Below are positions 44,412 to 63,812 of a DNA stretch of 64,000 nt, piece after piece; position 1 is the first letter of the stretch; every line of letters begins with the position of its first letter. Source of the DNA: Herbinix sp. (GTDB lineage Bacteria > Bacillota > Clostridia > Lachnospirales > Lachnospiraceae); contig JAQSYO010000007.1 of the NCBI GenBank assembly GCA_029256105.1, forward strand, positions 62,001-126,000. The letters run 5' to 3'. Position numbers and translations under genes: made by a program. Below the pieces are notes generated by a model. It did not search any database, was not told where the DNA came from, and saw only the letters and a program-made list of their open reading frames with translations.

Positions 44412-44627
44412 ATGAGCGATAAAGAAAAAATATATAACATATTAAAATGGCTCTTACGAATTCTTATAATAATCATGATTTTTGCGTTAATGCTTGATTT
44501 TATAGAAAGAGCGAAATATATATCAGTAAGCATAGATAATGTAATCGAATGTGATTTTATAATTTTAATACATGTGTTTATATTAGGATTATTTACTTAT
44601 GGACTAGTTAATTGTAAAAAATTGTAA
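44412..44627 (+). CDS. 71-aa membrane protein, unknown
   Basis: A small protein with two hydrophobic helices (LLRILIIIMIFALMLDFI and FIILIHVFILGLFTYGLV). GGGGGA precedes the ATG by 6 bases, which supports translation. It lies 35 bases after the MarR gene and could be part of that transcript. No family recognised. Confidence 0.6.
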   Translation: MSDKEKIYNILKWLLRILIIIMIFALMLDFIERAKYISVSIDNVIECDFIILIHVFILGLFTYGLVNCKKL

Positions 44628-44794
44628 GTCGGTATATAATAAACAAATATTGCTCGAATATAAAGTCAGCTGTGAACTCAAGAACAATAAAGTTGTAGTA
44701 TTTCTATAAAAATTCCAGTTGCATTATTTTTACATTAGTACTATAATAAGCCAAGTGAATTAAAATTATCAGATAATTGTATGTTTTGACATCT

Positions 44795-45050
44795 ATTGTT
44801 CAGCATAACTTATGTTATACAACATTGAATATTAGATGGAAACGAAAGGGTTTCAACAATTATCAATGATTATCGAAACGATAATTATTGATAGGGGCTG
44901 AAGCCCTTTTTGTATTACTAATTAAATATTGTCCAGCATATCTTATTCTAATGCAATACTAAAAATTAGATGGAAACGAAAGGGTTTCAACATTTATCAA
45001 TGATTACCTAAAAGATAATCATTGATAAGGGCTGAATCCCTTTTATTTTA
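44795..45050 (+). ncRNA. tandemly duplicated structured leader with two terminators
   Basis: Two copies of a module of about 120 nt, starting at 44795 and 44928 (period 133-134). A 27-nt core beginning TTAGATGGAAACGAAAGG is identical in both (44832-44858, 44966-44992). Next comes a 15-bp AT-rich stem (TATCAATGATTATCG with CGATAATTATTGATA in copy 1) whose sequence differs between copies but still pairs. Each copy ends in a terminator: AGGGGC-TGAA-GCCCTT at 44893-44908 followed by TTT, and AAGGG/CCCTT plus TTTTATTTT in copy 2. GGAAAC in the core can pair with GTTTC, competing with the outer stem. TTGACA at 44786-44791 could be a -35. No known riboswitch class recognised. Confidence 0.75.
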
Positions 45051-45073: not shown

Positions 45074-46270
45074 ATGAAAAAAAAGTTGTTATCTTTAATG
45101 CTTGTTACCGCAATGATTGGAACGATCCTAACAGGATGTGGCAGTTCAAAAACATCCGAAACTTCAGAAACTCCAAAGACTGCAGGCGATTCTAAAACTG
45201 CTTCTTCTACAACAGGGGAAGAAGACAATATCGTCCGTATTGGTGTTGTTTGTACACTTACAGGCGGTAGCGCTATTTATGGTGAAGGTGCTAAGAATGC
45301 AGTTACTATGGCAGCAGAGGAAATCAATAACAGTGACAGCGAATTTAAAGTTGAAATCGTTGATATTGTTGATGATGCAAGTGATTCTAAACAGGCAGTG
45401 AACGCATATAATAGTTTAGAGCCAAGTTCACCGGAAGCTGTGATCGGTGCCTTCTTCTCCTCTGTAACATTACCGATGGCTGAGATAGCGAAAGAGCAAA
45501 ACATGTTATTACTTGCCACTGGAGCTACTAATAAAAAAGTAACAGAAGTTGGACCTACAATTTTTAGAGATTGCTTCATAGATCCATACCAAGGTAAAAT
45601 GGCAGCACAATTCGCAAAAGAGAAGGGTACTACGAAAGCAGCTATTATTTATGCTAAGGATGATGATTATTCCAATGGTCTTAAGGATGCATTTGTAGAA
45701 AATGCAGCAGCAAATGGTTTTGAAATTGTATATACCGGTGAATGTACTACAAAGGATACTGACTTTACAGCTCAGGCTTCACAGGCAGTGGCAGCTGGAG
45801 CAGACTTCTTATTCTATCCTGCTTTTCTTGATACAGTTCCTTTGTTAGTACAGCAGGTAAGAGATGCTGGATATGAAGGTGTCATTATGGGTGGTGATGG
45901 TTGGGATGGTTCCGATACCACCGGACTTGAATCCTACTTTGATAATTGTTATTTTACAAACCATTATTCCTCAGAGGATTCAGCACCGGCGGTACAGGAA
46001 TTTGTTACAAAATATACAGAGGCGTATGGTGTAGAAAGCTTAACCGCTTGTGCAGCACTTTACTATGATGCAATCTATATGTTAGTAGAAGCGGCTAAAA
46101 ACGGCAGTGGTTCGGATACGGCTTCCTTGGTGAAAGGCATGACCGGTATGACATTTACCGGAGTTGGCGGTACCTTTACTATGGATGCAGATCGTAACGC
46201 GGTGAAGAGCGTTGTTATCAATACGTTCGATGCTGGTAAGGTTAAGTGGTTAAAGACTTTAGAGCCATAA
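45074..46270 (+). CDS. livJ: Liv-type (HAAT) ABC transporter substrate-binding lipoprotein
   Basis: A 398-aa periplasmic-binding type I protein. Lipobox ILTGC near residue 22, then a Ser/Thr-rich linker to about residue 50, then the two-lobe receptor: IVRIGVVCTLTGGSAIYGEGAKNAV, EAVIGAFFSSVTLPMAEIAKE (typical of branched-chain or amide/amino acid binders) and TACAALYYDAIYMLVEA. Family members bind Leu/Ile/Val but also amides, urea or other amino acids, and the operon content points to another ligand here. GGAGG is 9 bases before the ATG. First gene of a 12-gene operon behind the duplicated leader. Confidence 0.9.
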   Translation: MKKKLLSLMLVTAMIGTILTGCGSSKTSETSETPKTAGDSKTASSTTGEEDNIVRIGVVCTLTGGSAIYGEGAKNAVTMAAEEINNSDSEFKVEIVDIVDDASDSKQAVNAYNSLEPSSPEAVIGAFFSSVTLPMAEIAKEQNMLLLATGATNKKVTEVGPTIFRDCFIDPYQGKMAAQFAKEKGTTKAAIIYAKDDDYSNGLKDAFVENAAANGFEIVYTGECTTKDTDFTAQASQAVAAGADFLFYPAFLDTVPLLVQQVRDAGYEGVIMGGDGWDGSDTTGLESYFDNCYFTNHYSSEDSAPAVQEFVTKYTEAYGVESLTACAALYYDAIYMLVEAAKNGSGSDTASLVKGMTGMTFTGVGGTFTMDADRNAVKSVVINTFDAGKVKWLKTLEP

Positions 46271-46298
46271 GTTTTAGAGGAATAAAAAATAGAATATA

Positions 46299-46342
46299 GA
46301 ATAACATACGACACAGGATTGAGCCTGTGTCTTATGTTATTC
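46299..46342 (+). other. strong hairpin between binding-protein and permease genes
   Basis: A 19-bp stem with one mismatch (46299-46317 with 46324-46342, core GACACAGG/CCTGTGTC) and no T-tract, so more likely an mRNA 3'-end stabiliser or processing site than a terminator. It separates livJ from livH. Confidence 0.7.
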
Positions 46343-46371
46343 CTATATATTCAGAAAGAAAGGTGTTTGAC

Positions 46372-47259
46372 ATGTCGTTATTTATTCAAAGTATGGTGAA
46401 TGGCTTAAATCAAGGTGCAATCTACGCATTAATAGCCCTTGGGTATACCATGGTGTATGGTATCATCCGTATGATTAATTTTGCACACGGTGACTTTATA
46501 ATGGTTGGTAGCTATACCTTGTTTTATACAATACCATTAATGATTAATGCTGGAATGCCGCCATGGATGTCAGTATTCATCGCAATTGCAGTTTGTACCT
46601 TTGTTGGTATTACGGTTGAGGTTGTAGCCTATAGGCCGGTTCGTAAGGCAGGTTCCATGACAGCCTTGATTACAGCCCTAGCAATGAGTCTTTTCTTAGA
46701 GAATTTAGCGATGGTATTATTTGGAGCAAATCCAAAGTCAGTTCCAGCTATTTTTGATCGTGCTTCCATTGATATACTAGGAGCGAAGCTACAAGTGAAA
46801 TATTTGCTTACCTTTGGTATCGGTATCATCATAATGATTGCACTTCAATTATTTGTTAGGAAGACAAAACTTGGTAAGGCTATGAGAGCAGTTCCACAGG
46901 ACAAACAGGCTGCAACCTTGATGGGGATTAAAGTAAATACTATAATAACGATTACCTTTGGCATTGGTTCTGCACTTGCGGCTGTAGCAGCTCTTATGTA
47001 TTGTAGTACCTATCCAAGATGCACAACAGATATGGGAAGCATGATGGGACTAAAAGCTTTTGTTGCAGCTGTTCTTGGCGGTATCGGTAGTATTCCGGGT
47101 GCTATGATTGGTGGTTTGATTGTAGGTTTAGTAGAAATTTTTGTAAAGGTGTATATTGCTCCAGGTTGGTACGAAGCGATTACCTATAGTCTTTTAATCA
47201 TCGTATTAATTGTAAAACCATCTGGTATTCTTGGTAAAAATATTGGTGAGAAAGTGTAG
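46372..47259 (+). CDS. livH: Liv-type ABC transporter permease LivH
   Basis: A 295-aa inner-membrane subunit with about eight helices. GLNQGAIYALIALGYTMVYGIIRMINFAHGD (split here as two family blocks, GAIYALIALGYTMVYG and INFAHGD) and MGIKVNTIITITFGIGSALA are diagnostic for LivH. The ATG at 46372 is chosen because AAAGGTG lies 8 bases upstream. Followed after 8 bases by livM. Confidence 0.92.
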   Translation: MSLFIQSMVNGLNQGAIYALIALGYTMVYGIIRMINFAHGDFIMVGSYTLFYTIPLMINAGMPPWMSVFIAIAVCTFVGITVEVVAYRPVRKAGSMTALITALAMSLFLENLAMVLFGANPKSVPAIFDRASIDILGAKLQVKYLLTFGIGIIIMIALQLFVRKTKLGKAMRAVPQDKQAATLMGIKVNTIITITFGIGSALAAVAALMYCSTYPRCTTDMGSMMGLKAFVAAVLGGIGSIPGAMIGGLIVGLVEIFVKVYIAPGWYEAITYSLLIIVLIVKPSGILGKNIGEKV

Positions 47260-47267
47260 GTGGGAAA

Positions 47268-48272
47268 ATGAATCTATTTAAAAATAAAAAGTGGACCTAT
47301 TTAATCAATTTAATAGGAATCTGTTTGATCTTTTTTGCGTTTATGATACTTTTTAAATCAGGAGTATTGGGAACGAGAACCAACTACATAAAAGGTATTT
47401 TTACTACTGCATGTTATACTATTATCATGGTATCTTCACTTAACCTATTAACGGGGTTTATGGGTGAATTTTCACTTGGTCATGCAGGCTTTATGTCCGT
47501 GGGAGCATATAGCTCAGCGATTGTAACGAATATGCTTGTTGATAAAGGAATACCCAATATATTGCTCTTTGTTATAGCTCTGCTTGTAGGTGGAATCGCT
47601 GCCGCAATAACAGGAACGTTGGTTGGTATACCCGCATTAAGGCTTAGAGGCGACTATTTAGCGATTGTTACAATTGCATTTGCAGAAATAATAAGAGTTG
47701 CGTTTTGTAACTTTGAAATTACCGGTGGGGGAAAGACAATGAGCGGAATCACGAAGCTTTCTAACTTTTACTGGTGCTTTTGGGTAATGGTAATTTGCGT
47801 AACATTTATGTATATGTATGTTCGCTCCAGATTTGGCCGCACGGTAACAGCCATTCGGGAGGATTACATCGCTGCTGCCTCAAGCGGAATCAATGTAACC
47901 TTTTATAAGGTGCTGACATTTACTGTCTCTGCTTTTTTTGCCGGAATCGGTGGAGCAATGTATGCGCATTATATGACGGCAATGATACCTACAAACTTTA
48001 ACTTCATGTATTCAGCAGAGTTTTTAACCGAGGTTATCATTGGCGGTACCGGATCCTTAACCGGTTCTATTATCGGAGCCACCTTATTATCCGCTTTACC
48101 GGAGGCAATGAGACAATTTGCAAATTACCGTATGCTTGCATATGCAATCATATTGGTATTGGTAATGATATTCAAGCCAAGCGGTATTTTTGGAACTTAT
48201 GAATTCTCTTTAACAGGTACTCTTTCTAAGTTATTTGGTAATAAGAAAAAGAAGGAGGTAAGTAAAGGATGA
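47268..48272 (+). CDS. livM: Liv-type ABC transporter permease LivM
   Basis: A 334-aa permease, partner of LivH. Family blocks are NLLTGFMGEFSLGHAGFMSVGAY near residue 60, GDYLAIVTIAFAEIIRV near 130, and the cytoplasmic coupling segment AIREDYIAAASSGIN near 197. A basic C-terminal tail (GNKKKKEVSKG) ends the protein. Its last 4 bases overlap livG. Confidence 0.92.
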   Translation: MNLFKNKKWTYLINLIGICLIFFAFMILFKSGVLGTRTNYIKGIFTTACYTIIMVSSLNLLTGFMGEFSLGHAGFMSVGAYSSAIVTNMLVDKGIPNILLFVIALLVGGIAAAITGTLVGIPALRLRGDYLAIVTIAFAEIIRVAFCNFEITGGGKTMSGITKLSNFYWCFWVMVICVTFMYMYVRSRFGRTVTAIREDYIAAASSGINVTFYKVLTFTVSAFFAGIGGAMYAHYMTAMIPTNFNFMYSAEFLTEVIIGGTGSLTGSIIGATLLSALPEAMRQFANYRMLAYAIILVLVMIFKPSGIFGTYEFSLTGTLSKLFGNKKKKEVSKG

Positions 48273-49048
48273 GTGTAGAACAACCTGTATTGCAAGTATC
48301 ACATCTGGGAATTTCATTTGGAGGACTTAAGGCAGTAAGTGATTTTAATATTGAAATAGGAAAAAGTGAATTGTATGGTTTAATTGGTCCAAATGGTGCC
48401 GGAAAAACAACGGTATTCAATTTGCTTACTGGAGTATACAAGCCTACGGAAGGTGCATTTTTCCTGAATGGTGAGAAAATGAATGGAAAAAAGACGCATC
48501 AGGTAGTGCAGGAGGGTATTGCGAGAACCTTTCAAAACATACGTCTCTTCAAGAAAATGACAGCACTTGAGAATGTAAAAGTTGCTATGAATATGAAGAT
48601 GAAATATTCGCTGGTTGCAGCGGCTTTCCGCTTACCAAGTTATTGGGCACAAGAAGCTGAGATAGATGCAAAAGCGAGGGAACTTTTAGAAGTGGTAGAT
48701 CTTGGAGATAAAGCCGATGTTATCGCCCAGAATCTTCCCTACGGACAACAAAGAAGACTTGAAATTGCAAGAGCACTTGCAACCGGAATGAAATTACTGC
48801 TCTTAGATGAACCTGCAGCTGGCATGAATCCTACTGAGACTGCTGAATTACTTGACATTATTAATGTCATTCGAAAAAAATTTAATATCTCTGTATTACT
48901 AATCGAACATGATATGAGCTTAGTTATGAAGATATGTGAAAAAATCCAAGTTATTGACTATGGTGAAACAATCGCATTTGGAACACCGGAAGAGATTGCT
49001 ATTAATCCAAGAGTTATTGAGGCGTATCTCGGAAAAGAAGACGAATAG
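48269..49048 (+). CDS. livG: Liv-type ABC transporter ATPase LivG
   Basis: A 259-aa ATP-binding subunit. Walker A GPNGAGKTT near residue 37, FQNIRLFKKMTALENV Q-loop, LPYGQQRRLEIARAL signature (the LivG form), Walker B LLLLDEPAAGMNP and H-loop LIEHDMSLVM. AAGGAGG is 10 bases before the ATG, within the end of livM. Works with LivF as a heterodimeric motor. Confidence 0.93.
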   Translation: MSVEQPVLQVSHLGISFGGLKAVSDFNIEIGKSELYGLIGPNGAGKTTVFNLLTGVYKPTEGAFFLNGEKMNGKKTHQVVQEGIARTFQNIRLFKKMTALENVKVAMNMKMKYSLVAAAFRLPSYWAQEAEIDAKARELLEVVDLGDKADVIAQNLPYGQQRRLEIARALATGMKLLLLDEPAAGMNPTETAELLDIINVIRKKFNISVLLIEHDMSLVMKICEKIQVIDYGETIAFGTPEEIAINPRVIEAYLGKEDE

Positions 49049-49061
49049 GGGGAGAGTACTT

Positions 49062-49769
49062 ATGTTATCAATTAAAGATTTACATGTTTCATATGGTGCT
49101 ATTCACGCCATTCATGGAGTTAGCTTAGAGGTCAATGATGGAGAAATAGTCACATTAATCGGCGCTAACGGTGCTGGAAAAACAACAATTTTACATACGG
49201 TTACCGGTCTTAAGATAGCAAATAGCGGCACAATAAGCTATGGAGATTTAGATTTACGCGCTACGGATGCCAGTAAATTAATAAAATATGGTATTAGCCA
49301 TGTTCCGGAAGGAAGACATATATTCCCCGATATGACAGTTTTAGAAAATCTGGAGATGGGTGCTTATTCTACGAAAAAAAATAGAAGAGAGTTAGAAAAA
49401 AACTTTACACTCGTATTTGAACGGTTCCCGAGATTAAAGGAAAGATATAAGCAGCTTGCTGGCACTTTATCAGGTGGCGAGCAACAGATGCTGGCCATGG
49501 GAAGAGCATTAATGGCAGATCCTAAAATATTATTGCTGGATGAACCTTCCATGGGACTCTCGCCTATCTTGGTAAAGGAGATATTTAGTATTATTCGATA
49601 TTGTCATGAGATAGGGATAACCATACTTTTAGTGGAACAAAATGCAAAAATGGCACTTGGTATTGCAGATAGAGCATATGTTTTAGAAACCGGTAATATT
49701 ACAATCAGTGGTAAGGCCAAGGAGTTGCTGGAAGACGATAGAGTCCGTAAGGCATATCTTGGTCAATAA
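49062..49769 (+). CDS. livF: Liv-type ABC transporter ATPase LivF
   Basis: A 235-aa ATP-binding subunit. Walker A GANGAGKTT, LSGGEQQMLAMGRALM signature, Walker B ILLLDEPSMGLSP and LVEQNAKMAL in place of a canonical H-loop, all as in LivF. The ATG at 49062 follows GGGGGAGAG by 6 bases. Longer in-frame sequence upstream overlaps livG and is not used. A small hairpin (CTCACAA/TTGTGAG at 49770-49788) follows the gene. Confidence 0.93.
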   Translation: MLSIKDLHVSYGAIHAIHGVSLEVNDGEIVTLIGANGAGKTTILHTVTGLKIANSGTISYGDLDLRATDASKLIKYGISHVPEGRHIFPDMTVLENLEMGAYSTKKNRRELEKNFTLVFERFPRLKERYKQLAGTLSGGEQQMLAMGRALMADPKILLLDEPSMGLSPILVKEIFSIIRYCHEIGITILLVEQNAKMALGIADRAYVLETGNITISGKAKELLEDDRVRKAYLGQ

Positions 49770-49844
49770 TCTCACAAATAGCTTGTGAGTCGAGCCATTT
49801 ATTATTAGTGATGCCGCCGATAGGCGACGGAATGGAGGTAAGTT

Positions 49845-50468
49845 ATGGAACATTTTATTCTTGCTATTACAAGAACCTGTGGTAGTGGTGCAACCACCAT
49901 AAGTAAAATGCTTGCGAAGGACTATGGGATTGCACTATATGACAGGCAGCTTTTACGCTTAGCTTCAGAAGATAGTGGTATTAATGAGAGCTTATTTTCA
50001 AATGTGGATGAAACGGTTAAAAACACCATTTTGTATCACGTTTCTAAAAAGGTATATAAAGGAGAGTTAATCCCTCCGGAAAGTGATAATTTTACATCAG
50101 ACAGTAATCTTTTTAATTATCAGGCCAAAGTGCTTAGGGAACTTGCTGAGATAGAATCCTATATAGTAATTGGAAGATGTGGTGATTATATTTTACAGGA
50201 TAGGAAAAACATGATCTCCATTTTCCTTACTGCAGAGGAAGAAACTTGCATCCAACATGTGATGGAGAGACTTGTCTGCAATCGAAAAGAAGCCAAGAAA
50301 TATATCACTAAAAATAATAAATTTAGAAGTAATTATTATACTTATCACACGGGTAGAAAATGGAAAAATCCTGATAATTACGATTTGTGTCTAAATACCG
50401 GGAAATTGGGATATGAGAAGACAGTCGAAATTATAAAGGATTATGTTTCCTTAAGACTGGCAGAATAG
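49845..50468 (+). CDS. cytidylate-kinase-like P-loop protein
   Basis: A 207-aa protein of the cytidylate kinase-like family (PF13189 type), widespread in Clostridia and of unknown substrate. The nucleotide loop RTCGSGATTIS (residues 10-20) lacks the lysine of a classical Walker A. Other family features are YDRQLLRLASEDSGI and IVIGRCGDYIL. GGAGG is 7 bases before the ATG. It sits between the transporter and the D-amino acid genes and shares their direction and spacing, so it is part of the operon; its role there is open. Confidence 0.8.
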   Translation: MEHFILAITRTCGSGATTISKMLAKDYGIALYDRQLLRLASEDSGINESLFSNVDETVKNTILYHVSKKVYKGELIPPESDNFTSDSNLFNYQAKVLRELAEIESYIVIGRCGDYILQDRKNMISIFLTAEEETCIQHVMERLVCNRKEAKKYITKNNKFRSNYYTYHTGRKWKNPDNYDLCLNTGKLGYEKTVEIIKDYVSLRLAE

Positions 50469-50553
50469 AAGCTATTAATTATAAAAGTAACAGGGTACTC
50501 TTTAATTACACATAATAAAACATACTAAATAATTAGAAATCAGGGGTAGGATA

Positions 50554-51402
50554 ATGGAAAACTTAGGATACTATGATGGTAAATATGATTTAATCGAAAA
50601 TATGACAGTACCATTTGATGACAGAGTTCATTATTATGGGGATGGAGTGTATGATGCCACCTGTGCGGGTAATCATATTATTTTTAATTTAGAGGAACAT
50701 ATTGATCGGTTTTACAACAGTGCCGAATTACTGCAAATTAAAATTCCTCATACCAAGGAAGATCTAAAGAAAATTCTTCTTGAAATGGTAAGTAAGGTTG
50801 AGGGAAATGAACTTTTTGTTTATTGGCAGGTTACCAGGGCGGTTGCGCCAAGAAAGCATGTATTCCCTGAAAAAGATGCAAAAATATGGATTATGATTCG
50901 ACCATCAAAAATAGGTGATCCCAAAAATCTTTTAAAACTTATTACAGTTGAAGATACCAGGTTTTTACACTGTAATATAAAGACACTGAATTTAATACCC
51001 AATGTTATGGCTTCACAAAAAGGTGAACTAGCTGGTTGTGATGAGATTATCTTCCACCGCGGGGAACGCGTAACGGAATGCTCTCATAGCAATCTACATA
51101 TCATTAAGGACGGTAAATTTATTACACCTCCAACAGATCATTATATACTGCCTGGAATCGCTAGAGATCATTTGATCAAAATGAGTAAACAATTGGGTAT
51201 TCCGGTAGAGAAGACTATTTTTACTTTACAGGATATGATGGAGGCAGATGAGGTTATTGTGAGTTCTTCTAGTAATTTCTGTTTGTCCGCTTATGAAATA
51301 GATGGTTTGAAAGTTGGAGGAAAAGCGCCGGAACTACTTCATAAATTGCAGGAGGCGCTTATGGAGGAATACTTGGTAGCCACGAAACAGAAGGAGGCTT
51401 AA
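50554..51402 (+). CDS. dat: D-amino acid transaminase (PLP fold-type IV)
   Basis: A 282-aa class IV aminotransferase. The segment CNIKTLNLIPNVMA with the PLP-binding Lys143 is the signature of D-amino acid transaminase rather than of branched-chain or aminodeoxychorismate enzymes, and YYGDGVYDA near residue 28 is also typical. It interconverts D-alanine, D-glutamate and their keto acids. AGGGGT lies 7 bases before the ATG. The next gene starts 6 bases after its stop. In this operon it could form D-glutamate from 2-oxoglutarate and another D-amino acid, or drain it. Confidence 0.85.
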   Translation: MENLGYYDGKYDLIENMTVPFDDRVHYYGDGVYDATCAGNHIIFNLEEHIDRFYNSAELLQIKIPHTKEDLKKILLEMVSKVEGNELFVYWQVTRAVAPRKHVFPEKDAKIWIMIRPSKIGDPKNLLKLITVEDTRFLHCNIKTLNLIPNVMASQKGELAGCDEIIFHRGERVTECSHSNLHIIKDGKFITPPTDHYILPGIARDHLIKMSKQLGIPVEKTIFTLQDMMEADEVIVSSSSNFCLSAYEIDGLKVGGKAPELLHKLQEALMEEYLVATKQKEA

Positions 51403-51408
51403 TGATCC

Positions 51409-52482
51409 ATGACGAATGAGGAATTGACAATATATAACATAGGAGAGAACTTAGACTCACTGATGAACCTGGATCCCAGAGGTTATGGAGTCTGCCGTAT
51501 TTTGTATGCAGGCAGCAGAGCATATACAGGCGAGCCATTGACAATGCATAGTGCAAAAAAAATGGTAGAGCATATTAAGGCCAATGACTTTGTATTTATT
51601 CTTACCGGTTTTATATTGCTTCCTCATAAATCACCGGAAATGGATGGTATTGTAAGCTCAATGTTACTTGCCCGTTCCTTGGTACAGGCATTTGATGCAA
51701 AACCTATTATTATTTGCCCGGAAGAGAACTTAGAAGCTGTCAAAAAATGTGCAAGTGTTGTTGGACTCCATTGCTATGAAAATGTGGATAAGGTAGCGGA
51801 GCTGCCCATTTCCATGGGAGTAATTACTTTTACGAAGGATAAAAGGAAAGCAGAGGAACAAGCAGAGCAGATAATTGCAAAGATACTCCCTAAGGCAGTT
51901 ATTGCTATTGAGGCACCTGGAGCAAATGAATGTGGTGAGTATCATAATGCGATAGGTGTAAATGTCACTGAGTTTGAGGCAAAGACAGATGTTTTATTTC
52001 AAAAATTAAAGGATAGAAATGTTCTGAATTTTGCCATAGGTGATTTGGGAAATGAGATAGGAATGGGTACCATAGGGGATCATATCAAAAAATATATTCC
52101 TTACACTGCTGAAAATCAATGTAAGTGTGTATGCCAAAATGGTATTCTGGCAACAACAAAGGCAGATAATATTATCACTGCAACGGTATCAGATTGGGGA
52201 TGCTATGGGCTTATGGCAGCAATCGCATTTCTAAAAAAGGATTTGGATATTTTCCATGAGGGAGATATGGAAATGGAAGTTATGCGAGTTGCTACAAGAA
52301 GCGGCATGATCGATATGAATGGTTCCCTTATCCCTGGAATTGATGGCTTTAATACAAAAATGAATGTTAATATTGTCGAGCTAATGCGCCAGTGTGTAGG
52401 ATATGCAATCAAGTTCGAGGGAAGAACGGAGCATTGGTTTGAAAATGTTTTAACAAAGGGATTTTTTCAGGAATGGAGGTAG
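51409..52482 (+). CDS. DUF4392 protein (D-glutamate cyclase C-terminal-type domain)
   Basis: A 357-aa protein matching DUF4392, now called D-glutamate cyclase-like C-terminal domain. Features: GTGEPLT-type phosphate-binding-like segment (AYTGEPLTMHSAKKM), IAIEAPGANECGEYHNAIG near residue 165, FAIGDLGNEIGMGTIGDHI near 210, and TVSDWGCYGLMAAIAFL near 262. In animals this domain is the second half of mitochondrial DGLUCY, which turns D-glutamate into 5-oxo-D-proline; here it is a separate gene. GGAGG is 11 bases before the ATG. The stop is followed after 2 bases by pxpB. Confidence 0.85.
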   Translation: MTNEELTIYNIGENLDSLMNLDPRGYGVCRILYAGSRAYTGEPLTMHSAKKMVEHIKANDFVFILTGFILLPHKSPEMDGIVSSMLLARSLVQAFDAKPIIICPEENLEAVKKCASVVGLHCYENVDKVAELPISMGVITFTKDKRKAEEQAEQIIAKILPKAVIAIEAPGANECGEYHNAIGVNVTEFEAKTDVLFQKLKDRNVLNFAIGDLGNEIGMGTIGDHIKKYIPYTAENQCKCVCQNGILATTKADNIITATVSDWGCYGLMAAIAFLKKDLDIFHEGDMEMEVMRVATRSGMIDMNGSLIPGIDGFNTKMNVNIVELMRQCVGYAIKFEGRTEHWFENVLTKGFFQEWR

Positions 52483-52484
52483 TA

Positions 52485-53204
52485 ATGCGTATATTACCGT
52501 CAGGAGATTTAGCACTTGTTGTGGAGTTTGGGAATGAAATAAGTACTGCTTGTAATGATAAAGTGAGACAATTAAATCAATGCTTAAAACGAAATGAAAT
52601 AAAGGGCGTTATCGAGACAGTACCCACCTTTCGTTCTTTATTGGTGTATTACGATCCTTTAAAAATTACATATAAAAAGCTTTGTAACTATATCGAAGCT
52701 GTTGCGAATGCAGAGGGAGATATCAAAGTAAAGTCAAATAGAATTGTTGAGATTCCGGTATGCTATGGAGGACAATACGGCGAAGACCTGGTAGAGGTAG
52801 CTGAATATGTTGGGATGAGTGAAACTGAGGTAATTCGTATTCATTCGAGCGTAGATTATTTGATCTATATGTTGGGATTTCTACCCGGATTTCCTTATCT
52901 TGGTGGACTTGATAAAAGATTGGAGACACCAAGGCTGTCGAATCCGAGAACATCGATTCCTGCAGGTTCAGTTGGAATTGGCGGAGAACAAACCGGTGTT
53001 TATCCGATCGATTCACCGGGAGGATGGAGACTTATCGGAAGAACACCATTAAGGCTTTATGACAGTAAACGTGAGAAGCCAACCCTTTATCAGGCGGGGG
53101 ATTTTATTCATTTTCAACCGATTAACGAAGACGAATTTGTACGTATAGACGAACTGGTTAAAAATGGACAGTATCAGTGCAAGATAAGAATTGGAGCTTC
53201 CTAG
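52485..53204 (+). CDS. pxpB: 5-oxoprolinase subunit PxpB (KipI-like)
   Basis: A 239-aa protein of the KipI/PxpB family, with PVCYGGQYGEDLVEVAEYVG near residue 87, MLGFLPGFPYLGGLD near 128 and IPAGSVGIGGEQTGVYPIDSPGGW near 157. PxpB and PxpC form the subunit pair that, with PxpA, hydrolyses 5-oxoproline to glutamate using ATP. In Bacillus the homologue KipI also inhibits sporulation kinase A, but the operon here points to metabolism. The ATG at 52485 is 5 bases after GGAGG. Confidence 0.92.
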   Translation: MRILPSGDLALVVEFGNEISTACNDKVRQLNQCLKRNEIKGVIETVPTFRSLLVYYDPLKITYKKLCNYIEAVANAEGDIKVKSNRIVEIPVCYGGQYGEDLVEVAEYVGMSETEVIRIHSSVDYLIYMLGFLPGFPYLGGLDKRLETPRLSNPRTSIPAGSVGIGGEQTGVYPIDSPGGWRLIGRTPLRLYDSKREKPTLYQAGDFIHFQPINEDEFVRIDELVKNGQYQCKIRIGAS

Positions 53205-53259
53205 TGGACCCTTTCTTTGAATATTTTTGACGCTGCATAGCGGCGGAATGGAGCTTAAT

Positions 53260-54207
53260 ATGAGTATTCAGATAATATCTCCAGGTGCCTTAACCACCAT
53301 ACAGGATTATGGGAGAATTGGTTATGGCGAAATAGGCTTCTCACCATCAGGAGCGGTTGATACGGATGCCATGGAAACCGCCAATTGTTTAGTTGGAAAT
53401 GAGATGAGAGAAGCAGTATTCGAGTGTACCCTTTTTGGTCCCACAATTCATTTTACGAAGGATAATGTGATAGCTGTTACCGGTGCTGATATGATGCCAA
53501 AGGTAAACGACAAAGAGATTTCCATGAACACAGCTGTAGTTGTAAAAGCGGGTGAGGATCTAGTACTTGCTTTTGCAGTAAAAGGATGTCGAAGTTATAT
53601 TGCATTTTCCGGTGGGCTCCAGATCGAAGATTGCTATGGCAGTAAATCTACTAATTTAAAATGTGAAATTGGCGGATTTAAGGGCAGGGCCTTAAAGGCA
53701 AATGACGAAATATTATTTGCGGAGCCTAAAAGTATTCTGCCTGACATGGAGAAACGCACCTATAAACAATCGGAAATAGATCGTTCACCAAAGATAGTCA
53801 GGGTAGTTATGGGTCCCCAGGACGATTACTTTACTAGCGAAGGGATTCATATTTTTGAAACTGGAAGCTATAAATTGACTAATGATTCTAACCGGATGGC
53901 ATGTAAACTTTCCGGTCCTGTTATAGCCTGCAAACAGGCTACGGATATTATTTCGGACGGTATATCGCTGGGTTCGATTCAAGTTTCCTCAAACGGACAG
54001 CCTATGGTGATGCTTTCAGATCGGCAAACAACGGGTGGCTATGCCAAAATAGGAACTGTAATTTCCACTGATATTCCAATTATTGCGCAGTGCAAACCGG
54101 GAGACGAAATAAGATTTCAAAGAATTACACTAAAGGAAGCTCATAAGATTTATAAAAAATATAATAGAAATAGAAAGAAATTTCAGAAGAAAATGAGATT
54201 GAAATAA
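53260..54207 (+). CDS. pxpC: 5-oxoprolinase subunit PxpC (KipA-like)
   Basis: A 315-aa KipA/PxpC family protein: IISPGALTTIQDYGRIGYGEIG at the N-terminus, SGAVDTDAMETANCLVGN, then YIAFSGGLQ near 118, and GSIQVSSNGQPMVMLSDRQTTGGYAKIGTV near 245, as in biotin-dependent carboxyltransferase-like subunits. The ATG at 53260 follows GGAG by 6 bases. A lysine/arginine-rich tail ends the protein. Partner of PxpB. Confidence 0.92.
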   Translation: MSIQIISPGALTTIQDYGRIGYGEIGFSPSGAVDTDAMETANCLVGNEMREAVFECTLFGPTIHFTKDNVIAVTGADMMPKVNDKEISMNTAVVVKAGEDLVLAFAVKGCRSYIAFSGGLQIEDCYGSKSTNLKCEIGGFKGRALKANDEILFAEPKSILPDMEKRTYKQSEIDRSPKIVRVVMGPQDDYFTSEGIHIFETGSYKLTNDSNRMACKLSGPVIACKQATDIISDGISLGSIQVSSNGQPMVMLSDRQTTGGYAKIGTVISTDIPIIAQCKPGDEIRFQRITLKEAHKIYKKYNRNRKKFQKKMRLK

Positions 54208-54257
54208 ATGTAATATTTAAATGTGTGATCTGCCATCACAGTGAAAAGGAGGTAAGT

Positions 54258-55043
54258 ATGGATTATAGAAGTTATCACCCCTCAGAGGTAAGGAGTCTGA
54301 TTAGAAAAAGTGAAATTACTACCCCAACTGCAGGTATGTGTGGTGGCTATGCTCAAGCGAACCTGGTGATTCTACCGAAGGAGCTGGCCTATGATTTCCT
54401 GCTTTTTGCACAAAGAAATCCGAAGGCGTGCCCTATCTTAGAGGTTATGGATGAAGGGGAGAGAGCTGTTAAATATATGGCCAAGGATGCGGATATTGCT
54501 ACCGACCTCCCCAAATACAGAATTTATGAATATGGGAAGTTAACCGGTGAATATACCGATGTAGAAAAGTTCTGGAAACCTGATTTTGTAAGCTTCTTAA
54601 TCGGATGCAGTTTTTCCTTTGAGGAGGAACTACTAGATGCAAATATTACGGTTAGGCACATTGAAGAGCAATGTAATGTTCCGATGTACATAACTAACCT
54701 GGAATGTGAAAGAGCTGGACTATTTTCAGGAAACATGGTAGTAAGCATGAGGCCGATTCCGTACAAGGATGTTCCCAAGGCAGTTTCGGTCACGGCTGCA
54801 ATGCCCAAAGTTCATGGTGCACCAATCCATATTGGAAGTCCCGAAGTGATTGGCATAAATAACATTGATAAACCTGACTTTGGTGATCCTGTAACAATAA
54901 AAGAAGGAGAAGTGCCGGTATTCTGGCCTTGTGGTGTTACGCCTCAAGCAGCACTCATGGCAACAAAACCGCCTTTTGCTATAACACATGCTCCGGGCCA
55001 TATGTTTATCACGGATGTAAAGAATGTAGAATTGAAATTTTAG
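54258..55043 (+). CDS. DUF1445 protein (D-glutamate cyclase N-terminal-type, YcsI-like)
   Basis: A 261-aa member of the DUF1445/UPF0317 family (putative hydro-lyase; D-glutamate cyclase family). Blocks: TPTAGMCGGYAQANLVILP near residue 22, FLIGCSFSFEEEL near 110, and FWPCGVTPQAALMATKPP followed by ITHAPGHMFITD at the end. This domain is the first half of animal DGLUCY. In Bacillus subtilis the homologue ycsI lies in the same cluster as the pxp genes. AAGGAGG is 6 bases before the ATG at 54258. It lies between pxpC and pxpA. Confidence 0.88.
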   Translation: MDYRSYHPSEVRSLIRKSEITTPTAGMCGGYAQANLVILPKELAYDFLLFAQRNPKACPILEVMDEGERAVKYMAKDADIATDLPKYRIYEYGKLTGEYTDVEKFWKPDFVSFLIGCSFSFEEELLDANITVRHIEEQCNVPMYITNLECERAGLFSGNMVVSMRPIPYKDVPKAVSVTAAMPKVHGAPIHIGSPEVIGINNIDKPDFGDPVTIKEGEVPVFWPCGVTPQAALMATKPPFAITHAPGHMFITDVKNVELKF

Positions 55044-55109
55044 AGAATTTAATAGAAGCACATTTGATTAGATGGCGTTATGCTTATATAAGCATATGGA
55101 GGTGAACAA

Positions 55110-55865
55110 ATGCATCAGATAGATTTAAACTGTGACTTGGGTGAAAGCTTTGGCATGTATACGCTCGGAAGGGATGAAGAGGTGATTCCCTATATTTCAT
55201 CTGCGAACATAGCCTGTGGATATCATGCTTCCGACCCCGTAATTATGGAGAAGACAGTGCAATTGGCAAAAGCAAACGGTGTACACATCGGAGCACATAC
55301 GGGCTTTCCGGATTTGCTTGGATTTGGACGTAGAAATATGACTCTGTCACCGAAAGAGGCAAAAACCTATACAATGTATCAAATTGGTGCGTTGGAAGGC
55401 TTTTGTCGGGCGGTAGGTGTATCGTTATACCATGTAAAACCTCATGGAGCTTTTTATAATATGGCAGCAAAGGATTATGAATTAGCATGTGCAATATGTG
55501 AGGGTATTGCATCAATTGATGCTAATATAATTTTACTGGGACTAAGTAACAGTCAGATGGAAAAAGCTGCAAAGACGGTAGGAATAACCTTTAAACAAGA
55601 GGTTTTCGCAGATCGAGCATATGAAGATGACGCAACTTTGGTAGCAAGAAGTAAACCAGGAGCAATGATCGAGGAGGAAGAACTAGCAATTAGTCGTGTT
55701 GTGAGCATGATAAAAAAGGGAGCCGTAACATCAATTAACGGAAAAGAGATAGAAATTAAGGCTGATTCTGTTTGTGTCCATGGAGATGGTGCGAAAGCTT
55801 TAGCATTTGTTAAACTGATTCGTCAGACACTAAAGGAAGAAGGAATTGAAGTGAAGGCTTTATAA
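55110..55865 (+). CDS. pxpA: 5-oxoprolinase subunit PxpA (LamB/YcsF family)
   Basis: A 251-aa LamB/YcsF family protein with [16 protein letters not shown] at the N-terminus, [13 protein letters not shown] near residue 31, [15 protein letters not shown] near 61, [11 protein letters not shown] near 108 and [10 protein letters not shown] near 227: aspartates and histidines typical of this metal-dependent TIM-barrel-like fold. Completes PxpABC, which opens the lactam of 5-oxoproline. GGAGG is 7 bases before the ATG. Last gene of the operon, directly before a strong terminator. Confidence 0.93.
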
Positions 55866-55868
55866 TGT

Positions 55869-55914
55869 AGAAGAGCTACAAACCCTGTTTTGTGATAGGG
55901 CTTGTAGCTCTTCT
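55869..55914 (+). terminator. terminator of the liv-dat-pxp operon
   Basis: An 18-bp stem with one mismatch: AGAAGAGCTACAAACCCT (55869-55886) with AGGGCTTGTAGCTCTTCT (55897-55914), then T-rich DNA. It is the first strong intrinsic terminator after the leader. Confidence 0.85.
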
Positions 55915-56078
55915 TATATATATTTCGTTTTTTTTAAACTTTTACAATCGGAAAAAGGTGTAAATTAAAAACGATTTGTGATATACTGGAAAATAAAATA
56001 ACGAGAATTCAAGGTCTGGTTCCATAGTGATAACGATCTAAATTAAGCTATAGTTTCAGTGGAAAGGGGAGAATCGTT

Positions 56079-61811: not shown

Positions 61812-63812
61812 ATGAAAAAGGTAATGCGTGCTATGCTGGCTTACGTCGTAGCTTTTGTTCTTGTGGCTACCATGCTTGCAGGTTGCGGAAGTCCGAAGAA
61901 CGACACGACGACCGAGACGGAGACAGAGACTGCTACTCCGACGGAGAAAGCAGAAGTTAAAACAGGGGATGAGGCAGAACCTGCGCCGACGGGAGAGATG
62001 ACGGAGGTTGGAACTCCGAGAAATGAAACACTTATCGTTGAGTGCCAGTCACCTACTGACACACCAGGACAATTTAATTCCTATATGCAGGGAACTACGA
62101 TGGGCTTCGGTATTCATCAGCTTATGTCAGCGATGATGTGGGAGATCGATACTGTAAAAGGTGAGCAGTTCGGCGAAGTTGCGGATGGTATGCCCGTATC
62201 AAATGCTGATTTTACTGAGCATACAGTCAAGATACGTCAGGGTATTAAATGGTCAGATGGCGAAGACTTAAATGCTGACGACGTTGTATTTACATTTAAT
62301 ATGATAATGACCAACCCTGGTATAAACCAGAATGCTTATTTCAATCAGGTATTCAAATCTGTTGAAAAAGTAGACGATTATACCGTTAAGTTTGTTACGA
62401 ACGAGTCTTTCCCGCGTTTAGCACAGAAATTCGGCGTTACCATCTGGGGTAATGATTTAAGAATCGTTCCGGAGCACATCTACTCAAAGCAGACGGATGT
62501 TACAGAGTTTAAGGATTCGGAGCCTGTTGTTGCCGGTCCATATACGGTAAAGGCTTATGACGAATTAGGAAAATGGATTCTATATGAACGTCGTGAAGAC
62601 TGGCAGGCTAGTACGGTTGGGGTTGTAACTGGAAAACAGCCGCTGGCTAAATACGTATGGTTCCGAAATCTTGGCGATGATACTACCCGTCAGATGAGTC
62701 TTATCAACAATGAAGTTGATATTCTTTGTGAGGTAACACCGGAAATGCTGGAAGTTATGACTGCACAGAATCCGAATATTGCATGCTGGTACAAAGATTT
62801 TCCGTATGCTACGAGTGATGATCCCTGCTCAAAAGGCTTAGCTTTCTCTATGGGTAAGGGTGCGCCCTATGACAATAAAGATTTCCGTTGGGGGATTGCA
62901 CTTGCTATGAATTTTGACGAGATATCACAGAATATATTTGACGGGGTCGGCCGTTCTTCACCATTCCCTATTATTACTAACACAAGTGCCGCTCAGGAGC
63001 TTTATGTTAAACCCATACTTCCATGGCTTGAATCGTTCACTCTTGATTTGGGAGATGGTACTACTGTGAAGCCATTCGACACTGGTTATGCAGAGAGAAT
63101 TGCTGGAGTTCTCAGGGACAAAGGCTATGATATCACCACAGATCACAATGCGCTTATCGATATGTTTGGTGTAGGCTGCTGGAAATATGATACTGCAGCA
63201 GCAGAGAAGCTATTTATTAAAGCAGGTCTTGAGAAAAAAGCCGACGGCTGGTATTTTAATGGGAAACCGTTCACCTTTAACATGACATATCTTGCGGATA
63301 CAGAGGCTCAAGCAGGTCGTGGTACTCAGGCAGCTTATGACCAGCTGACCAAGTTCGGATTCAAAATTAACCTTGTCAGTGAATCCAGTGCAACCTGGAG
63401 CACCAATGATTTTACAGGACAGTTTGATATAGGCGGATACTGGCCTACCGGTTTCATAACCAAAGATATTTACTCACAGATCAATGGTTGGGATGCCGAT
63501 CTTATCGTTCCGATCGGAGAGAGAGGTTCGGGTCAGGGTACTCGTTGGAATAATGCCAAAGCTACCGATATCATTCACGAATTGGCGAAACTTTCACCGG
63601 ATGATCCGAAATCTTATGAGTTGGGTCTCGAATTTTTCAAAGTATCGATAGAAGAGCTTCCATTTATTGGTTTCCATTCAGGCGTTAAGTTCGTTCCGAC
63701 GAACAGTACTTACTGGAATAACTACCCAAGTGCTGACAATCCCTATAATGGTCCTTGGTGGTGGTGGAGCTGCTTTAAATATATAACAACAGAGATTTCA
63801 CCGGTTCAGTAA
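61812..63812 (+). CDS. family-5 ABC transporter substrate-binding lipoprotein
   Basis: A 666-aa binding protein of the SBP_bac_5 (peptide/nickel/oligosaccharide) family, somewhat longer than usual. Lipobox MLAGC near residue 25, a Thr/Glu-rich linker to about residue 60 (TTTETETETATPTEKAE), then the family core: IRQGIKWSDGEDLNADDVVFTFN near 138, YTVKFVTNESFPRLAQ near 195 and KGLAFSMGKGAPYDNKDFRWGIALAMN near 340. Aromatic-rich C-terminus (YNGPWWWWSCFKY). Ligand may be an oligopeptide or an oligosaccharide, as in hemicellulose-using bacteria. AAAGGAGG is 7 bases before the ATG. First gene of an operon continuing to the right. Confidence 0.9.
   Translation: MKKVMRAMLAYVVAFVLVATMLAGCGSPKNDTTTETETETATPTEKAEVKTGDEAEPAPTGEMTEVGTPRNETLIVECQSPTDTPGQFNSYMQGTTMGFGIHQLMSAMMWEIDTVKGEQFGEVADGMPVSNADFTEHTVKIRQGIKWSDGEDLNADDVVFTFNMIMTNPGINQNAYFNQVFKSVEKVDDYTVKFVTNESFPRLAQKFGVTIWGNDLRIVPEHIYSKQTDVTEFKDSEPVVAGPYTVKAYDELGKWILYERREDWQASTVGVVTGKQPLAKYVWFRNLGDDTTRQMSLINNEVDILCEVTPEMLEVMTAQNPNIACWYKDFPYATSDDPCSKGLAFSMGKGAPYDNKDFRWGIALAMNFDEISQNIFDGVGRSSPFPIITNTSAAQELYVKPILPWLESFTLDLGDGTTVKPFDTGYAERIAGVLRDKGYDITTDHNALIDMFGVGCWKYDTAAAEKLFIKAGLEKKADGWYFNGKPFTFNMTYLADTEAQAGRGTQAAYDQLTKFGFKINLVSESSATWSTNDFTGQFDIGGYWPTGFITKDIYSQINGWDADLIVPIGERGSGQGTRWNNAKATDIIHELAKLSPDDPKSYELGLEFFKVSIEELPFIGFHSGVKFVPTNSTYWNNYPSADNPYNGPWWWWSCFKYITTEISPVQ

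Follow-up and report, generated by a model that had tools for sequence, protein, structure and literature searches.

What would a bacterium do with a Liv-type importer, a class IV aminotransferase resembling D-amino acid transaminase (Dat), both halves of D-glutamate cyclase, and the PxpABC 5-oxoprolinase encoded side by side? The question is raised by a gene block in a 64,000-nucleotide stretch of Herbinix sp. DNA (positions 62,001 to 126,000 of contig JAQSYO010000007.1), referred to here as the window. The list of open reading frames places 12 genes at 45074-55865, all on the + strand and running from livJ (starting at 45074) to pxpA (ending at 55865), in the order livJHMGF, Cytidylate_kin2, Dat-like transaminase, DUF4392, pxpB, pxpC, DUF1445, and pxpA. 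The block is real, and its conservation across genomes is confirmed. We give roughly even odds (a probability near 0.5) to the operon serving the salvage of nitrogen, and carbon, from D-amino acids by way of D-glutamate and 5-oxoproline, a reading in which we infer the substrates, the direction of flow, and an inversion of stereochemistry. The features of the block are as follows.

45074-46270, + strand: livJ, substrate-binding protein (Peripla_BP_6, 171 bits in Pfam; PDB relatives 3td9 and 4gnr)
46300-46341, + strand: long hairpin in the livJ/livH intergenic gap, lacking a clean U-run (fold z-score -7.8)
46372-47259, + strand: livH, permease (BPD_transp_2 in Pfam); the ATG at 46372 was chosen as start
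47268-48272, + strand: livM, permease (open reading frame, position, and phmmer matches to relatives)
48269-49048, + strand: livG, ATPase (open reading frame, position, and phmmer matches to relatives)
49062-49769, + strand: livF, ATPase (best NCBIfam match LivF, 269.6 bits, cut-off 441)
49845-50468, + strand: Cytidylate_kin2 protein (PF13189, 173.5 bits)
50554-51402, + strand: Dat-like class IV aminotransferase (PF01063; closest PDB entries 3lqs and 1daa; TIGR01121 227.7 bits, cut-off 277.45)
51409-52482, + strand: DUF4392 (GLUCM-like_C) of the long type, with a CxCxC insertion (PF14336, 305 bits; predicted local distance difference test (pLDDT) score of the model 96.4)
52473-53204, + strand: pxpB (TIGR00370 240.4 bits, cut-off 145.55)
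53227-54207, + strand: pxpC (TIGR00724 295.7 bits, cut-off 230.2; NF045499 244.8 bits, cut-off 500)
54225-55043, + strand: DUF1445 (D-Glu_cyclase in Pfam), likely start 54258 (PF07286, 233 bits; NF003969 421.5 bits, cut-off 324; pLDDT 91.9)
55110-55865, + strand: pxpA (LamB/YcsF; PF03746, 343 bits; NF003814 372.6 bits, cut-off 226)
55866-55925, + strand: strong operon terminator 3' of pxpA (-30.5 kcal/mol, z-score -8.6)

The conservation of this arrangement was followed through its DUF4392 gene. A contig scan with an alignment of 7 long DUF4392 proteins returned 234 relatives, and the best 80 of these, a choice favouring close relatives, were analysed. Neighbouring genes were counted within 9 kb in the 45 loci with at least 8.5 kb of left and 6.5 kb of right flank, the other 35 being excluded as short-flanked. 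DUF4392, dat, pxpB, pxpC, DUF1445, and pxpA lie together on one strand within at most 9 kb in 37 of the 45, and taken singly the partners of DUF4392 are just as regular (dat in 40, pxpB, pxpC, and DUF1445 in 41 each, pxpA in 40). The exact 12-gene order recurs in 18 of the 80 loci (L063, L064, L068, L070-L073, L076, L078, L081, L082, L087, L090, L091, L097, L104, L108, and L110), and on this ground a chance adjacency of Liv and pxp operons was rejected. The same order was seen in L020 and L022, from two further genomes of this family, and in L043; these are the same records as L063, L110, and L078, respectively.

The supply side of the block is more variable. All five liv genes are present in 17 of the 45 loci (on the operon strand in 15 and divergent in 2), with Cytidylate_kin2 within 9 kb in 15 of these 17; the Cytidylate_kin2 protein has no evident role. 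Alanine racemase genes occur in 19 loci, each on the operon strand, AGCS alanine symporters in 3 (one on the opposite strand), Lrp-type regulators in 10, and biotin carboxylase with its carrier in 4. A Pfam check of neighbours that covered two racemases and one AGCS protein confirmed the alanine racemases of L044 and L045, from other families, and the Na_Ala_symp protein of L024. Mutual exclusion of importer and racemase was considered and dropped, as the counts (both in 4 loci, Liv only in 13, racemase only in 15, neither in 13) give a Fisher p of 0.065, not significant and with kinship ignored. In several Clostridium loci (L044, L093, L100, L106, L111, and L123), genes for a biotin carboxyl carrier and biotin carboxylase follow pxpB-pxpC, hinting at a biotin-linked lactamase variant.

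At the level of whole genomes, the occurrence of the families is nested. Among 291 genomes of the class, 11 exceed the cut-off for DUF4392, 19 for DUF1445, and 32 for PxpA; DUF1445 and PxpA each accompany DUF4392 in 10 of the 11, and PxpA accompanies DUF1445 in 18 of the 19. The co-occurrence of DUF4392 and DUF1445 in these genomes has a Fisher p of about 1e-12, with kinship ignored. Within the family (150 genomes), 10 genomes exceed the cut-off for DUF4392 and 12 for DUF1445, 8 of the 10 having both; of the two exceptions, G045 carries a DUF1445 fragment where a contig ends (L021). DUF4392 and DUF1445 lie on separate contigs in G169, G203, G258, G283, and G417, where DUF4392 is of the short type. 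In the Herbinix genome, the only PF14336, PF07286, and PF03746 matches found are the operon copies. The first-pass annotation had suggested looking for a co-occurrence of DUF4392, DUF1445, pxp, and aminotransferase genes across Clostridia, and the 37 of 45 loci with the six-gene set bear this out. Literature searches on the enzymes, the operon, and ANTAR returned no account of the operon in a literature from which subscription journals were mostly out of reach.

Within the window, the genes are tightly packed. The widest gap is 101 bases, between the livJ stop at 46270 and the livH ATG at 46372, and the livM/livG and DUF4392/pxpB pairs overlap, in agreement with the earlier description of 12 same-strand genes with gaps under about 105 bases and overlaps. 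That description also counted a single, terminal terminator; the strong one after pxpA is there, but there are two further terminator stems in the leader in addition to the livJ/livH hairpin. From spacing, strand, and terminators, we infer that the 12 genes are co-transcribed.

The names of the proteins differ in precision. The Pfam scan covered nine of the 12 and assigned Peripla_BP_6, BPD_transp_2, Cytidylate_kin2, Aminotran_4, GLUCM-like_C, CT_C_D (PxpB), CT_A_B (PxpC), D-Glu_cyclase (DUF1445), and LamB_YcsF (PxpA); a tenth protein scanned, encoded downstream of the operon, matched no Pfam family. The NCBIfam scan covered 10 of the 12, with LivF added, and LivM and LivG, outside both scans, are named from position and from phmmer matches to relatives. 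PxpA, PxpB, the PxpC-related domain model (TIGR00724), and DUF1445 exceed their curated cut-offs, so that the three Pxp-type proteins encoded together are each above one. LivJ (105.6 bits against 477), LivH (230.5 against 379), LivF (269.6 against 441), Dat, and the PxpC equivalog model fall below theirs, and the names of Dat, LivJ, LivH, LivF, and PxpC therefore hold at the family level only.

For two of the enzymes, conserved residues sharpen the picture. The closest PDB relatives of the Dat protein are D-amino acid aminotransferases (3lqs and 1daa), and across 70 sequences its Y33, R100, H102, K143, and E175 show at least 97% conservation. An R-x-H carboxylate-binding motif, a tyrosine, and the catalytic lysine, at positions we take to be diagnostic of this activity, are present in the alignment to 1daa. 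The predicted DUF4392 model (pLDDT 96.4) has the fold of TON_0340; the template modelling score (TM-score) on the target reaches 0.89, at 22-24% identity over the structural match. The metal ligands of TON_0340, reported as Glu59, Asp61, Glu115, Asp157, Glu161, and Asp246 (PMC5132392), map to E77, D79, E168, D212, E216, and D312 of the window protein, which are invariant in 46 sequences, and by these ligands DUF4392 is predicted to be a two-metal enzyme. The long type further carries its CxCxC insertion at residues 238-242, C238 and C242 being present in all 82 long sequences and C240 in 81; the insertion is absent from the short type and could form an extra metal site. Where the short type has SNWG the long type has SDWG, and the window protein is 20-28% identical to aligned short-type members.

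DUF1445 is less readily placed. Beyond its own family, a structure search of the PDB returned just a weak match to an NrpR domain (3nek, E value 1e-4, TM-score 0.38 on the query). Three of its cysteines (Cys69, Cys128, and Cys236, counting from 54225) never vary among 82 sequences, and two of the three lie within the motifs IGCSF and FWPCG. The mouse protein that combines DUF1445 with DUF4392 converts D-glutamate to 5-oxo-D-proline (PMC5339696). Both halves of such a cyclase are present and linked in the window, but as separate genes at 51409-52482 and 54225-55043.

Is 5-oxoproline then imported, or made in the cell? A PxpT-type carrier is absent from the operon's 12 genes, and phmmer with four query proteins found NRAMP/PxpT-type 5-oxoproline carriers in none of the 80 long-DUF4392 loci; TRAP and TAXI carriers, with one query each, were likewise found in 0 of 80. 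In contrast, all six clostridial pxp loci that were fetched and have no DUF4392 (L051, L053, L058, L060, L061, and L062) gave an NRAMP/PxpT-type sequence with the same queries, although in L053 (9353-9661) it is a related piece of just 102 amino acids, between pxpA and DUF1445 and beside a PanF-like SSS carrier. PxpT is required for growth of C. glutamicum on 5-oxoproline (PMC13274462). The long-DUF4392 loci instead hold a possible source of D-glutamate, namely Dat, often with an alanine racemase, an AGCS alanine symporter, or a Liv importer, and from this, together with the missing PxpT-type carrier, we read 5-oxoproline as made inside the cell. In alignments with its PDB relatives, LivJ also retains what we take to be the motif that holds the free alpha-amino acid in LivJ-type proteins. 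The import of 5-oxoproline, one of the options in the first-pass annotation, is accordingly less likely. The idea that the operon holds the genome's sole Liv-type importer was discarded, since the genome has 4 full-length Peripla_BP_6 matches. L046, with a short DUF4392 and no dat, adjoins divergent genes that look TRAP/TAXI-like by eye. The amidohydrolase genes and PanF-like carrier beside the pxp genes of L053 are suggestive of D-amino acid chemistry without being diagnostic, and were not used.

The reading we favour would run in four steps. The Liv-type importer would take up an alpha-amino acid, most likely one of the D form, for instance D-alanine; in sister operons the supply may come from an alanine racemase or from an AGCS carrier of alanine. 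Dat would transfer the amino group of this amino acid to 2-oxoglutarate, leaving the 2-oxo acid (pyruvate in the case of D-alanine) and yielding D-glutamate. DUF4392 with DUF1445 would cyclise D-glutamate to 5-oxoproline, by analogy to the mouse enzyme, and PxpABC would spend ATP to open the lactam to glutamate. Cyclisation of D-glutamate to 5-oxoproline is downhill, and the ATP step would turn a reversible transamination into a one-way process. The earlier proposal of a route from a D-amino acid through D-glutamate and 5-oxoproline to glutamate thus fits the gene set and the conserved unit, apart from its 5-oxoproline import branch.

Stereochemistry imposes a further demand. If the carbon centre were kept through ring closure and opening, the product would again be D-glutamate and ATP would be burnt in a futile loop, so an inversion to L-glutamate would be required somewhere in the last two steps. 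The suggestion that PxpABC accepts 5-oxo-D-proline is for this reason incomplete, because with the carbon unchanged D-glutamate returns. Candidates for the inversion are DUF1445, PxpABC itself, and two MurI-type glutamate racemases encoded elsewhere. DUF1445 is the first suspect because it accompanies PxpABC even without DUF4392. Its assignment as an epimerase is opposed by the mouse fusion, for which the accessible text reports no glutamate racemase activity and makes no mention of an L-oxoproline product (PMC5339696), together with the fact that no racemase fold was found for DUF1445 among its PDB fold matches.

Several further observations weigh against D-amino acid salvage. Dat scores 227.7 bits with TIGR01121, below the cut-off of 277.45, and PxpC reaches 244.8 bits of the 500 set for its equivalog model NF045499. 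TON_0340, itself a DUF4392 protein, is reported to be an Mn-dependent phosphatase (PMC5132392). The two MurI-type racemases exceed their cut-off (G000:C9:156593 and G000:C76:8599) and could convert D-glutamate to L-glutamate without ATP; the genome in which they lie has a listed contamination of 7.48%. The failure to find a racemase-like fold match for DUF1445 counts on the same side. Eight of the 45 full loci lack part of the six-gene set: L066, L103, and L126 have a long DUF4392 without any pxp gene, L119 is without pxpABC, L135 is without DUF1445 and pxpA, and dat is missing in L099, L121, and L134. Neither the five liv genes nor an alanine racemase is close by in 13 of the 45. Four loci (L065, L066, L067, and L127) have a long DUF4392 without dat or pxp; L065, L067, and L127 are near contig ends, leaving L066 as the sole clear case.

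The same genes could be read in other ways. Should the operon scavenge 5-oxoproline, Liv would take up both enantiomers, PxpABC would use the L form, and DUF1445/DUF4392 with Dat would run in reverse to bring the D form to D-glutamate and 2-oxoglutarate. Every part for this lies in one gene block, and PxpABC is a 5-oxo-L-proline enzyme in C. glutamicum (PMC13274462). Such scavenging needs neither the dat gene, kept in 40 of 45 loci, nor the alanine racemase found near 19 of 45, and the carriers that would suit it (NRAMP/PxpT-type, or TRAP and TAXI with their single queries) are missing from all 80 loci. It is also at odds with the presumed alpha-amino acid motif of LivJ and would depend on an ATP-free ring opening that is presumably uphill. 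We consider it unlikely. An alternative centred on the cell wall would have Dat and alanine racemase set the D-alanine and D-glutamate pools, the cyclase and PxpABC drain surplus D-glutamate during peptidoglycan turnover, and the importer recover wall fragments or free D-amino acids. The sharing of gene blocks by alanine racemase and Dat speaks for it, as does the fact that D-glutamate and D-alanine are wall amino acids. The evidence against it is weak: by eye, and with no dedicated search made, no muropeptide enzyme stands out among the neighbours in loci with printed open reading frames, and two MurI copies lie elsewhere in the genome. It strikes us as rather improbable.

A third alternative is that DUF4392 and DUF1445 act on some other small molecule, such as a lactam-forming amino acid, phosphorylated or otherwise, their cyclase names having been transferred from the animal fusion. 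The long type does differ from the short in its CxCxC (at least 81 of 82 sequences) and in SDWG for SNWG, the window DUF4392 is just 20-28% identical to aligned short-type members, and phosphatase activity is reported for TON_0340 (PMC5132392). On the other side, none of the six metal ligands is lost, the genetic linkage with Dat and PxpABC suggests glutamate chemistry, and the mouse fusion acts on D-glutamate (PMC5339696). Another substrate is, in our estimate, very unlikely, and D-amino acid salvage remains the reading we carry forward.

When such a pathway would be switched on may be encoded in the leader upstream of livJ, which escaped the first-pass annotation and has the following features.

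44612-44640, + strand: candidate promoter TTGTAA-17-TATAAT, 5' of both leader elements (10 of 12 positions match in a consensus scan)
44836-44915, + strand: leader element 1, a mini-hairpin GAAAC-GAAAGG-GUUUC and a long intrinsic terminator (fold z-score -9.3)
44970-45050, + strand: leader element 2, a tandem copy of the same architecture (fold z-score -6.3)

The promoter call is weak, with 55 promoter-like sites in the region compared to 48.6 (standard deviation 6.8) in shuffles. In each element, the 3' arm of the mini-hairpin GAAAC-N6-GUUUC also contributes to the long terminator's 5' arm, so the two folds would be mutually exclusive. A pattern written from these same leaders, whose fit is therefore partly by construction, finds 27 elements in 21 of 24 Liv-type leaders (the window and 23 loci), two elements being present in 6; Markov-resampled leaders gave 1 element in 10 rounds over the 24. 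Its only 2 matches on both strands of the whole window are in the livJ leader, and 25 of its 49 matches in the 2.70 Mb of strand of the 80 loci are livJ-leader elements. Between groups, the terminator stems vary and the hairpin stays. The third hairpin pair of 15 distinct elements is A-U in 7, G-C in 5, and mispaired in 3. Elsewhere in the genome, a DNA query found no copy of the element, and a short-pattern search did no better than chance.

The idea of a known riboswitch or T-box was rejected at Rfam thresholds for the livJ leaders of the window and seven relatives. No family exceeds its gathering score in the window's livJ leader, sub-threshold matches being mostly microRNA families, and the six above-threshold matches in the seven relatives' loci (tRNAs, and glycine and fluoride riboswitches farther upstream on the other strand) all lie outside the livJ leader. 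A leader peptide starting from an ATG at the motif was dropped, as no ribosome-binding site was seen. The shape is closer to ANTAR sites, described as dual hairpins with six-base loops bearing A1 and G4 (PMC3369931). Among the 15 distinct elements, A1 is found in 10 and G4 in 13, in a pattern that permitted only A or G at loop positions 1 and 4; the window loops are GAAAGG twice, with G1 and A4, and so depart from the A1/G4 rule that some relatives follow. Where two hairpins occur (6 of 24 leaders), each has its own terminator. The genome search found one ANTAR protein, encoded directly behind the glutamine synthetase gene glnA (L148:6513-8440). With this gene neighbourhood and the ANTAR-like shape, a nitrogen-responsive antitermination switch is a reasonable guess.

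Taken to its furthest point, the proposal becomes an ATP-driven chiral ratchet, in which Dat would form D-glutamate from any D-amino acid, DUF4392 would cyclise it, DUF1445, with its three invariant cysteines, would act as an as yet unrecognised 5-oxoproline epimerase, and PxpABC would deliver L-glutamate, the Liv form standing under tandem nitrogen-responsive antitermination leaders, possibly through the ANTAR protein behind glnA. We regard this full version as doubtful and put it forward tentatively. If true, it would let Clostridia pass nitrogen from D-amino acids into L-glutamate without oxygen and with no need of a glutamate racemase. More generally, no physiological role is assigned to the bacterial counterparts of the animal D-glutamate cyclase in the accessible parts of the papers cited here. 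The placement of both cyclase halves between Dat and the 5-oxoprolinase makes such a role directly testable, along with how 5-oxo-D-proline re-enters metabolism, and the leader RNA gives separate access to the question of when the pathway is turned on. According to their records, several carriers of the block are Clostridia of the gut or rumen, which makes it relevant to what becomes of D-alanine and D-glutamate in those habitats.

The animal cyclase and the pxp operons were already known; the combined block, with Dat and an importer or racemase, was found undescribed in the searched literature. Its parts can each be set beside a known system. The leader shares with the ANTAR target RNAs of eut, nas, and ami leaders a mini-hairpin, a six-base loop, a C-G closing pair, and an overlap with the terminator; the targets are described as dual hairpins (PMC3369931), whereas the window loops have G1/A4 and each hairpin has its own terminator. 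The Thermococcus DUF4392 protein TON_0340 (PDB 4fc5 and 5gl2) has the fold and six metal ligands of the window DUF4392, but differs in its reported Mn-dependent phosphatase activity and at 22-24% identity; archaea are described in the accessible text as lacking DUF1445 (PMC5132392). Dat has D-amino acid transaminase (1daa) among its best PDB matches and keeps the catalytic positions, although the window protein is under the TIGR01121 cut-off. A 2025 table of gut bacteria lists 6 split and 0 full D-glutamate cyclase homologues (PMC12547972). As in animal DGLUCY/GLUCM, DUF1445 and DUF4392 occur together here, but one chain is replaced by two genes amid three pxp genes, with a long DUF4392 bearing CxCxC. 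The pxpTABC and pxpA-ycsG-ycsI-pxpBC operons of C. glutamicum and B. subtilis likewise keep pxpA, pxpB, and pxpC together, and a DUF1445 gene is also present in the fetched pxp loci L051, L053, L060, L061, and L062. The B. subtilis control matches PF07286, through a gene that is presumably ycsI in the pxp region. Unlike the pxpT-type operons, the block described here is without an NRAMP/PxpT carrier and has DUF4392 and Dat added, with a Liv importer, alanine racemase, or AGCS symporter nearby.

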